From assembly GCF_014489475.1 (NCBI RefSeq), contig NZ_CP060820.1, forward strand, positions 1,876,001 through 1,940,000: a stretch of 64,000 nt of DNA, read 5' to 3'. The stretch's first letter is position 1. Each line of letters opens with the position of its first letter. The notes under the pieces were generated by a model. It saw nothing but the letters and a program-made list of their open reading frames with translations. It did not search any database and was not told the DNA's origin. The translations under genes and the position numbers were made by a program. Positions 49,517 through 55,321 of this stretch are shown in pieces. This DNA comes from Lysobacter terrestris. GTDB lineage: Bacteria; Pseudomonadota; Gammaproteobacteria; Xanthomonadales; Xanthomonadaceae.

Positions 49517-52015
<2,499 letters not shown>

Positions 52016-52215: not shown

Positions 52216-53253
52216 TCAGTGCGCGCCGGCGGCCATGCCCAGGGCGACGACGGCGCCGATGATCAGCAGCAGGTAGCCCACCATCAGCACGCCGGCGATC
52301 ACCGCGATCACGATGGTGACGGTGCCCAGTTCGTGGCGCTGGCGTTCCGGATGGGCGGTGAAGGCCCACTGGTCCACCACCAGGGTGCTGGCGACCATGT
52401 CGTGCAGCGCGCGCTTGCGCTCGGTGAAGCCGGCCATGAGGTAACCGATGCACAGGATCAGGCTGCTCAGGATCGCGGCGAAGTAGCGGCCGATGCCGCG
52501 GGCGAAGCTGATCCGCTGGCCGTCGTCGTCGGTGACCTTGATGCCCACGGCCATCTTGCCCAGCGTGGCCTGGCGGTCGGACGAGTGCATCCAGGCGAAG
52601 TACACCGCCTGCATCGCGAGCGGCACGATGACCATGCCGAACAGGAAGCCGACGATGCCGGCGCTGGCGATCATGCTGCCGGGATCGCTGCGCGCGGCCA
52701 GACCGGTGCTGGCGCCGAAGCCGGCCATGATGATCATCTGCACGATCCAGGTGACGATGCCGACCAGGACCGAGTCGATGAAGTACGCGGCGAAGCGCTT
52801 CCAGAAGCCGGCATAGACCACTTCGCCGCCACCGACGTAGGCGTTGCCGTCATGCAGCGCGGCGCGCGGCGGCGCGTAGGGCGAGGACGGCTCCGCGACG
52901 GCGTAGGGGTTGGCGCCCGCACCCAGCGTGGCAGTCGACGACAGCGTGCCCAGCGACGGGCCAGCGGCGGCCGCGGCTAAGGCCGGCGCCGCCGACGGCA
53001 GCGGTTCGGCCATCGCGTACGGGTTCACGCCCGCCGACAGCGGCACGGCGTCGGCGGCGGGCGAGGTGCGGCCCGCGGCTTCGTTCAAGGCCTGGGTCAT
53101 CACTTCGCGCCAGGCGCGCCATTGCGGCATGCCCTCGCGCCAGACCAGGGTGTCCGGCTGCAACTGGCCGGCATGGTGCAGGTCGGCGAGATCGCTCGCG
53201 GCGACGGGGCCGAGGCGGTTGCGCTGGTAATCGCTGTAGTACCACTGGCTCAT
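52216..53253 (-). CDS. GYF_2 domain and RDD family membrane protein
   Basis: The protein has 345 residues. The ATG at 53253 is followed at once by the GYF_2 (DUF4339) pattern QWYYSDYQRNRLGPVAASDLADLHHAGQLQPDTLVWREGMPQW (residues 3-45). A Pro/Ala-rich linker holds two copies of an (A/S)PYA-type motif. The C-terminal RDD domain (about residues 145-300) has four predicted membrane segments (VYAGFWKRFAAYFIDSVLVGIVTWIVQ ... RGIGRYFAAILSSL) and the conserved ALHDMVASTLVV end. GYF_2/RDD fusions are common but uncharacterised. Third gene of a three-gene GYF_2 cluster. Confidence 0.85.
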   Translation of the reverse strand: MSQWYYSDYQRNRLGPVAASDLADLHHAGQLQPDTLVWREGMPQWRAWREVMTQALNEAAGRTSPAADAVPLSAGVNPYAMAEPLPSAAPALAAAAAGPSLGTLSSTATLGAGANPYAVAEPSSPYAPPRAALHDGNAYVGGGEVVYAGFWKRFAAYFIDSVLVGIVTWIVQMIIMAGFGASTGLAARSDPGSMIASAGIVGFLFGMVIVPLAMQAVYFAWMHSSDRQATLGKMAVGIKVTDDDGQRISFARGIGRYFAAILSSLILCIGYLMAGFTERKRALHDMVASTLVVDQWAFTAHPERQRHELGTVTIVIAVIAGVLMVGYLLLIIGAVVALGMAAGAH

Positions 53254-53263
53254 GGGCGTGTGC

Positions 53264-53977
53264 TCAGGTCGGGTTCGGATTGGTGCGGCATTGCGCGGGA
53301 CGGACGCGGTCGGGCAGGTCGCCGCCGCTGCAGTCCCAACGCGAGACATCGTCATCGGCTTCGAACAATAGCGTTTTGCCGTCCTGCGCGCCGATGCCGC
53401 GCAGGGTGATCTCGAAGGCGCAATGTCCGCCTTCGAGCGTGCCCACGCGCGTCGCGGCGATGCGCGGGCTCTGCGCGAGTTGCGCCAGCAGCGGCGCCAG
53501 GTCGGCGCTGTCGTTGTCGGGGCAGCGGCCTTCGCGCACGCCGTGTTCGGCGATGGCGGCCTTGACCGGCGCGACCATTGCGATCGCCTCGGCGACCTTC
53601 GCCTTCTGCGTGTAGTCGTTGTAGGCCGGGATGGCGATCGCGGCGAGGATCGCGATCATCGGCACGGCAACGACCGCGCAGACGATCAACGCGATCAGGC
53701 AGCCCGACATGCCCTGCTTGCGCGGCGGCGCGCGGTTCGCCGGCGGCGCGGCGCCGATGCCCGTCGGCACCGGCGGCGGCAGCGTGGCGTCCGGCGTGAC
53801 CGAGTCGATGTCGAGCTCCAGCGCCAGCCGCTCCAGCGGCAGCCACTGCACCATGCCCTCGCTCCACACCAGGCTGTCGCGACGCAGGCGCCGCTGGCGG
53901 TAGTGCTCGCGCAGTTCGTCGGCGGACATCGGGCCGACGCGGTTGCGCTGGTCGTCGGCATAGAACCATTGGGTCAT
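53264..53977 (-). CDS. GYF_2 domain fused to membrane-anchored pilin-like domain
   Basis: The protein has 237 residues, starting at the ATG at 53977. The GYF_2 domain (QWFYADDQRNRVGPMSADELREHYRQRRLRRDSLVWSEGMVQWLPL) covers residues 3-50. After a Pro-rich linker, a membrane segment (about residues 84-112) reads LIVCAVVAVPMIAILAAIAIPAYNDYTQKAKVAEAI, whose end is like type IV pilins, but the prepilin-peptidase site (G-F-x-x-x-E) is absent. The C-terminal globule has four cysteines (GRCPDNDS, GHCAFEI, WDCSGG, AQC). It is adjacent to a paralogue with the same four-cysteine pattern. Function unknown. Confidence 0.8.
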   Translation of the reverse strand: MTQWFYADDQRNRVGPMSADELREHYRQRRLRRDSLVWSEGMVQWLPLERLALELDIDSVTPDATLPPPVPTGIGAAPPANRAPPRKQGMSGCLIALIVCAVVAVPMIAILAAIAIPAYNDYTQKAKVAEAIAMVAPVKAAIAEHGVREGRCPDNDSADLAPLLAQLAQSPRIAATRVGTLEGGHCAFEITLRGIGAQDGKTLLFEADDDVSRWDCSGGDLPDRVRPAQCRTNPNPT

Positions 53978-53993
53978 CGGGCGTTCTCCTGGA

Positions 53994-54743
53994 TCAGCCG
54001 TCGCGGCGGCATTCGTAAGGGCGGTACGCGTCCGGCATGTCGCCGCCGCTGCAGTCCCAGGCGAAGCCCTCGGCATCGGGGCGGCCCTCGTAACGCAGCG
54101 CCTTGCCATCCAGCGCCTGGCCGTCGGCATCGATCGCGATCTCGAACGCGCAGCCGCCGTCGATGTCGGCGAAGCGCAGGTTCAGTGCGGCGCGTTGGCG
54201 GATGTTGCGCCGCACCGGGGCGAGACGCGTGTCATCGTTGGCCGGACAGCGCCCGGTGCGTAATGCGTGCTCCGCGACGACGCGCTTGAGGCCGTTCGAC
54301 AGTCCTTCCACGGCGCCCAGGCGGGTCGCGTCGCGGACGTAGTCCTGGTAGGCCGGCAGCAGCAGCGCGCCGATGATCATCACGCCCGGGATCGCGACGG
54401 CGGCGACGATCAGCGCGATCGCACCGCTCGACAGCGTCTTCTTCTGCCGCAGTGGTGCGCGCGCGTATTTGCCGCGCGGGGTCGAAGGGGCGTGGTGTGC
54501 GGATGAAGAGGGTGCGCCCATCGGCATCGGCGGCGGGACGGACGCAGCGCCGCCGTGCGCATGCAGGCGTTCGATGCCGAGTTCGCTGGCGAGCTGCTCC
54601 AGCGGCTGCCATTCGCGCAGGCCGGCGTGCCAGACCAGCGTGTCGCGCTGGATCACACGGTCCTGGTAGCGCTTGCGCATGGTCTCGGCCGACAACGGTC
54701 CGACGCGCCCCTCGCCGGGAGCGTGGTAATACCAATCGATCAT
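53994..54743 (-). CDS. GYF_2 domain fused to membrane-anchored pilin-like domain, paralogue
   Basis: The protein has 249 residues with GGAGG just upstream of the ATG at 54743. GYF_2 (DWYYHAPGEGRVGPLSAETMRKRYQDRVIQRDTLVWHAGLREWQPL) covers residues 3-49. A Ser/Pro/His-rich linker is followed by one membrane segment (about residues 106-132) that runs into LLLPAYQDYVRDATRLGAVE. The four cysteines of the C-terminal domain (GRCPANDD, GCAFEI, WDCSGG, YEC) match the neighbouring paralogue. First of three tandem GYF_2 genes lying between smg and topA. Confidence 0.8.
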   Translation of the reverse strand: MIDWYYHAPGEGRVGPLSAETMRKRYQDRVIQRDTLVWHAGLREWQPLEQLASELGIERLHAHGGAASVPPPMPMGAPSSSAHHAPSTPRGKYARAPLRQKKTLSSGAIALIVAAVAIPGVMIIGALLLPAYQDYVRDATRLGAVEGLSNGLKRVVAEHALRTGRCPANDDTRLAPVRRNIRQRAALNLRFADIDGGCAFEIAIDADGQALDGKALRYEGRPDAEGFAWDCSGGDMPDAYRPYECRRDG

Positions 54744-54832: not shown

Positions 54833-55321
54833 CTAATGTACCGGTTCGGGTTCGTCCGTGAACATCTGGGTTTCCATCCAGGCGTACGCGGCCTCGCTGC
54901 CGGGCTGGTTGAACAGCACCATCAGCACGACCCACTTGAGGTCGTCGAGGTCGAGTTCGTCCTGGTCCAGCGCCATCGCGCGGTCGAGCACGAGTTCGCG
55001 CTGGTCGGCGTCGAGGATGCCGTGTTGCTCCAGGAACAGCAGGAAGCCGCGGCATTCGACGTCGAGCTTGTCCAGCTCGGGGCCGAAGTAGATGCGGGTC
55101 GGGCCGTTGGCGCGCGGCGTGGCCGTGCTCGGGCGCTGCGACGCGAGCGCGTCGAGCCACTCGAAGGCCTTGTTGATCTCGGCGGGACTGAAGCCGGCCT
55201 GGCCGAGCTCCTCGAAGAGGGGGCCGCTGCGGAGCGAATCGTGGTCGCGGACGAGGTCGGCGTCCTCGGTGAAGTAGTGCTCGAACAGGTACAGCAGGAC
55301 GTCCAGGATGCTCTCTTTCAT
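54833..55321 (-). CDS. smg: Smg/DUF494 family protein
   Basis: The protein has 162 residues and no signal peptide. It shows the Smg pattern [82 protein letters not shown] and [16 protein letters not shown]. The role is not known; the gene usually lies next to dprA/smf and topA in gammaproteobacteria, as here, 85 bases after dprA. Confidence 0.9.

Follow-up and report, generated by a model that had tools for sequence, protein, structure and literature searches.

Between smg and topA, Lysobacter terrestris carries three adjoining genes whose products we read, at a probability of roughly 55%, as one inner-membrane assembly that descended from a single GYF_2–RDD–pilin polypeptide and whose parts are probably docked through GYF_2 and a PPP[L/V/M]P motif. 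In the window, that is, the whole stretch of 64,000 nt under analysis, the set lies at 52216–54743 on the minus strand in the order smg–B–A–RDD gene–topA (Table 1), the B–A and A–RDD intergenic gaps being about 16 and 10 bp. Pfam searches and synteny bore out the initial annotation in its view that each gene opens with a GYF_2 domain, that the third encodes an RDD domain and that smg and topA flank the set. The matches to PF14237 (GYF_2) in the module proteins, to PF00114 in A and B, and to PF06271 (RDD) in the third protein exceed the curated cut-offs, and the GYF fold was also recovered by Foldseek. No NCBIfam model scored over cut-off for the three proteins; a characterised family covering them all, which would have told against the initial reading, was not found.

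The L. terrestris genome (one contig, 3.15 Mb) encodes four GYF_2 proteins, namely the module trio and a GYF_2–AIM24-like protein. A and B are its only PF00114 matches, and it further holds 15 N-methyl prepilin signals and pilus-type ATPases. A promoter and terminator scan returned nothing exceeding chance, and plasmid and phage collections gave no match.

Table 1. Features of the three-gene set and its neighbours, in positions of the window.
Feature	Positions	Strand	Basis
smg, upstream neighbour	54833..55321	-	synteny
Pilin-like protein B, 249 aa: GYF_2 - PPPMP - membrane helix - pilin domain	53994..54743	-	Pfam + translation
Protein B GYF_2 domain	54588..54734	-	Pfam 9.1e-14
Protein B PPPMP motif	54522..54536	-	translation + motif statistics
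Protein B pilin domain PF00114, without prepilin site	54006..54305	-	Pfam 8e-9
Pilin-like protein A, 237 aa: GYF_2 - PPPVP - membrane helix - pilin domain	53264..53977	-	Pfam, translation, AlphaFold2
Protein A GYF_2 domain	53828..53968	-	Pfam 1.3e-15
Protein A PPPVP motif, presumed docking motif	53765..53779	-	translation + motif statistics
Protein A uncleaved pilin alpha-1 helix + membrane anchor, aa 93-134	53576..53701	-	AlphaFold2 helix 93-134; no GFTLIE motif
Protein A pilin domain PF00114, four cysteines	53285..53605	-	Pfam 1.4e-14; Foldseek to 1ay2, 1qve
RDD protein, 345 aa: GYF_2 - linker - RDD - C-terminal helix	52216..53253	-	Pfam + translation
RDD protein GYF_2 domain	53101..53244	-	Pfam 4.3e-13
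RDD protein SPYAPP motif; almost constant spacing to the following RDD in relatives	52867..52884	-	motif count in relatives
RDD domain	52390..52815	-	Pfam 2.4e-25
RDD protein C-terminal helix; position holds truncated pilin alpha-1 in several relatives	52219..52329	-	helix-tail profile comparison
topA, downstream neighbour	49517..52015	-	synteny

A pilin domain without its processing site

Proteins A and B contain a domain of the type IVa pilin fold with a PF00114 sequence match (Pfam, Foldseek), and the pilin-like stretches picked out initially, AIPAYNDYTQKAKVAEAI and LLPAYQDYVRDATRLG, are both present in the translations. Structure prediction, which had been proposed as a check, confirmed the pilin fold for A: the AlphaFold2 model (pLDDT 89.6, 27 sequences) comprises the long pilin helix (93–134) and a four-stranded globule, with Neisseria and Pseudomonas pilins (1ay2, 1qve, 2hi2) as top Foldseek matches. 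The N-terminus of the model matches the GYF domain of GltJ (7z3c), a gliding-machine protein that has other domains and shares only this fold with the module, and eukaryotic GYF domains with proline-rich peptides (3fma) are also among the structural matches. A globule with four conserved cysteines had been described as following the pilin-like stretch. The cysteines are kept in 94 of the 103 anchorable pilin-like domains (relatives and window), but the globule is the pilin domain itself, including its C-terminal D-region loop, and no separate domain.

The missing prepilin peptidase site was equally confirmed, as none of these 103 domains has a prepilin motif (G-1, F/M+1) or E5. Compared with the type IVa major pilin PilA (PF00114; Foldseek 1ay2, 1qve), the module pilins thus share the globular domain, the D-region cysteine loop and the α1 core (ILAAIA[IL]PAYxDYxxRA, kept across relatives), but are devoid of the G-1/F1/E5 site, carry a cytosolic GYF_2 domain instead of a short leader and are predicted to be membrane-retained. 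In a tree, one branch separates them from 22 canonical pilins (SH-aLRT 82). Having lost the prepilin site and E5, the pilin-like domain would stay anchored in the membrane by its uncleaved α1, and the usual entry into the pilus would be blocked. Since K/R residues precede the helix, we expect GYF_2 to face the cytosol and the four-cysteine globule the periplasm. An SGC that resembles a lipobox precedes the helix but was dropped as a candidate because the hydrophobic stretch comes after the cysteine.

The clear pilin fold (Foldseek) would also suit unusual minor pilins that enter the pilus via a different leader or peptidase. This is highly improbable, given the ~90 residues of cytosolic domain ahead of the helix, the absence of prepilin site and E5 from 103 of 103 domains, and, in relatives, the placement of the domain behind a multi-pass RDD protein that could not be extracted into a pilus. 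The most likely role, put forward tentatively, would be that of a non-polymerising periplasmic head presented by the RDD membrane protein, as an envelope scaffold or sensor.

The main rival to a scaffold or sensor would make the pilin-like proteins regulators of type IV pili, whose α1 packs with unassembled PilA within the inner membrane and reports or limits its pool, while GYF_2 relays the signal. PilS senses PilA in the membrane, which provides a precedent, and pilin α1 residues (IPAY, Y, R) are kept far beyond the needs of an anchor. PilM was present in all 150 family genomes searched, but, being universal, it cannot discriminate; moreover, the locus is no pil cluster, and site-less pilin domains are also fused to RDD, TM2, DUF2628 and M48, which suggests a general periplasmic module. 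We consider regulation of the pilus unlikely.

Outside the family, C-terminal pilin domains without a prepilin site were seen at L123, L126, L127, L134, L142, L143, L160, L263 and L287, their carriers being TM2, zinc-ribbon–RDD, DUF2628 and M48-peptidase proteins. This suggests that membrane-anchored pilin domains unable to polymerise form a broader class, in which an unprocessed pilin domain would be used as a periplasmic module.

Fused and separate forms at the smg–topA locus

Among 25 Xanthomonadaceae genomes found through smg alone, 23 have the module in some form at smg, as judged from locus annotation or, for genomes without a fetched locus, from adjacent matches: 21 with a pilin-like domain and two with GYF-RDD only, the remaining two (G005, G052) having none there. 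Matches to protein A came from 147 of the 150 family genomes, counting those to GYF_2 alone and to ordinary pilins; among the named carriers are Xanthomonas, Stenotrophomonas, Pseudoxanthomonas, Lysobacter, Arenimonas and Chiayiivirga. At 20 loci fetched from other families of the order, smg is directly followed by topA in 16, three pieces end short of topA, and one (L191) holds a fused form.

The genome-context survey that had been proposed showed five arrangements at the locus: GYF-pilin plus GYF-RDD (the window type, and the commonest, although frequencies are biased by most loci having been picked through a match to the pilin query), GYF_2-less pilin plus GYF-RDD, RDD-pilin, GYF-RDD-pilin, and one part only. 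Fusions at smg–topA exist without GYF_2 (L081, L082, L084, L086, L226, L233) and with it (L089, L223, L201, L227, L229). In other families of the order they were found at smg in L191 and elsewhere in the genome in L270–L278, the fused proteins f3, f11 and f12 being full length and f9 nearly so. No full-length RDD-pilin fusion was among the matches listed for the rest of the class (321 genomes). One Zn-ribbon–RDD–pilin protein on a Rhodocyclaceae contig (L126) indicates that the fusion does occur outside the order as well.

A truncated pilin α1 makes up the C-terminal end of several separate RDD proteins, e.g. L057 ('..VAIAIPAYQQFVQGAAGA') and L232 ('..IAAIALPAYQEYVRRAAGAG'). With a pilin-helix profile built solely from unfused pilin-like proteins, nine of 91 separate RDD tails outscored all 1820 shuffles. 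Such tails are hard to explain unless the lineages carrying them once had the fusion. In the window, the RDD tail gives no stub signal (score −0.6), and the split history of L. terrestris is therefore deduced from its relatives. In the RDD tree, the deeper branches hold the fused forms in a scattered fashion, whereas most separate forms belong either to one large group (SH-aLRT 91) or to a smaller mixed group nested with fused ones (SH-aLRT 98). A single origin of all separate RDD proteins was not rejected by the AU test (p-AU 0.27), i.e. several splits were not significantly favored.

The older form thus seems to have been one GYF_2–RDD–pilin polypeptide that was later split, leaving GYF_2 on both pieces. 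This leaves the initial proposal, in which a GYF_2 anchor took up a pilin-derived module, only partly borne out. In the L. terrestris lineage, the pilin and RDD parts are borne by different proteins, and there are two copies of the pilin part. With the RDD family (PF06271), the third protein shares the RDD domain; it differs by the GYF_2 domain in front and, in relatives, by a pilin stub or domain behind. No solved PDB structure matched the RDD region of the fused model, and the searches brought up no functional evidence for a transport activity of the RDD family.

Natural RDD-pilin fusions, the kept neighbourhood and short gaps within the module (median 40 bp; ≤60 bp in 69 of 81) support the earlier idea of one envelope complex, from which we infer that the pilin-like and RDD proteins associate physically; the pilin-derived helix would lie beside the RDD bundle and hold the parts together. 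Scatter of the genes among relatives, which would speak against such an association, was not seen within the family; only in one other family of the order were GYF-pilin and GYF-RDD genes found apart, on different contigs within a genome (G185, G215). Alternatively, the three proteins may be neighbours merely by descent, through tandem GYF_2 duplication and domain shuffling, and work independently, with the pilin-like domain a decaying relic. GYF_2 is common to all three, copy number and arrangement vary by genome (one to three RDD genes, one or two pilins), and some genomes have one part only (L094, L195, L199, L231, L232; L077, L093, L202). Yet a relic would not be expected to have its four cysteines and core residues preserved in 94 of 103 domains, or a nearly invariant PPPLP inside a variable linker, and the fusions speak for joint work, so we judge this explanation improbable. 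Two or three tandem GYF-RDD genes were observed at the locus in L067, L068, L095, L097, L110 and L198.

Relation to orphan 'pilA' genes

The pilin-like orphan itself was already known. XAC3805 of Xanthomonas citri 306 and AZ78_3612 of Lysobacter capsici are DUF4339 pilin-like orphans that have been set aside as not true pilins (PMC10333488, PMC4960238). Like the module pilins, and of the same family, they combine GYF_2 (DUF4339) with a pilin domain, have no prepilin leader and are encoded far from the pil cluster (PMC10333488, PMC4960238), and it is by this description that we liken the two. In the passages on these orphans there is no mention of an RDD partner, the smg–topA locus, fusions, stubs or the PPPLP motif, and the openly searchable literature yielded nothing on RDD partner, fusions, stubs or motif. 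What is added here is that RDD and pilin-like domains form one polypeptide in further genera and in other families of the order, often as GYF_2–RDD–pilin; that some separate RDD proteins keep a truncated pilin helix, implying that a fused protein was split; and that PPP[L/V/M]P lies beside GYF_2 in separate pilin-like proteins, is absent from fused forms and recurs after GYF_2 in SPFH and AIM24 proteins unrelated to the module. These findings give the orphan annotated as 'pilA' in Xanthomonas and Lysobacter both a partner and a locus, with a mechanism that can be tested, and advise against counting it as a pilin.

The PPP[L/V/M]P motif and possible GYF_2 docking

Linkers between GYF_2 and the helix differ in length as well as in sequence, apart from a PPP[L/V/M]P block. 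PPP[LVMIA]P occurs in 51 of 74 GYF-pilin linkers vs. 4.4 expected from composition-preserving shuffles (non-redundant set: 47 of 63 vs. 3.2). It is kept in eight of 12 pilin-like proteins without GYF_2, making up about the whole cytosolic tail in several of them (MSIPPPLPPS.., MNQPPPVPPS..), and was found in none of 19 non-redundant fused RDD-pilin proteins. Stenotrophomonas GYF-pilin proteins have polyproline without the strict motif, though RDD is present. Where no separate RDD gene neighbours GYF-pilin, the motif exists in L281, L282 and L283 and is missing from L077, L093, L202, L220, L279 and L280. Phylogenetically independent pairs for fusion vs. motif are too few (one on well-supported branches, seven on all), and the correlation may reflect few events. 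Block 61–70, containing PPPV, has a pLDDT of 84 in the model of A vs. 62 in a fused protein without the motif, an ordering that gives only a hint of docking.

A distinct block, [SN]P[YF]x[AP]P, lies 21–25 residues before RDD in 65 of 89 RDD proteins of relatives (0.1 expected) and never occurs in GYF-pilin linkers.

GYF_2 is rare in a phylum-wide sample, where it was detected in 32 of 200 genomes. The strict motif nonetheless also follows GYF_2 in unrelated proteins (SPFH, AIM24): it was counted in 12 of 27 well-framed cases, a set to which the module contributes three proteins, vs. 1.5 expected, with fewer independent cases than this count implies because many are close relatives of each other. 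Judging from these sequence patterns, PPPLP is likely a ligand of GYF_2, in cis or in trans, and a candidate ligand for bacterial GYF_2 domains; in the module, GYF_2 is predicted to bind the PPP[L/V/M]P of the pilin-like protein in either manner. The more far-reaching proposal, that the pilin is a fixed periplasmic head of an RDD complex whose parts, once the ancestral protein had split, stayed joined through GYF_2–PPPLP and that such docking is a general means of linking membrane-associated proteins in bacteria, is possible, though we hold it as rather doubtful.

Elsewhere in the phylum (L290–L314), proteins named SPFH-type by sequence resemblance close with a GYF_2 domain and, behind it, a PPPLP or PPPPP tail. 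The fourth GYF_2 protein of L. terrestris (G000:C1:2964406-2964549, L004) reads GYF_2-HLPPPMPG and continues into a domain that resembles the AIM24 type.
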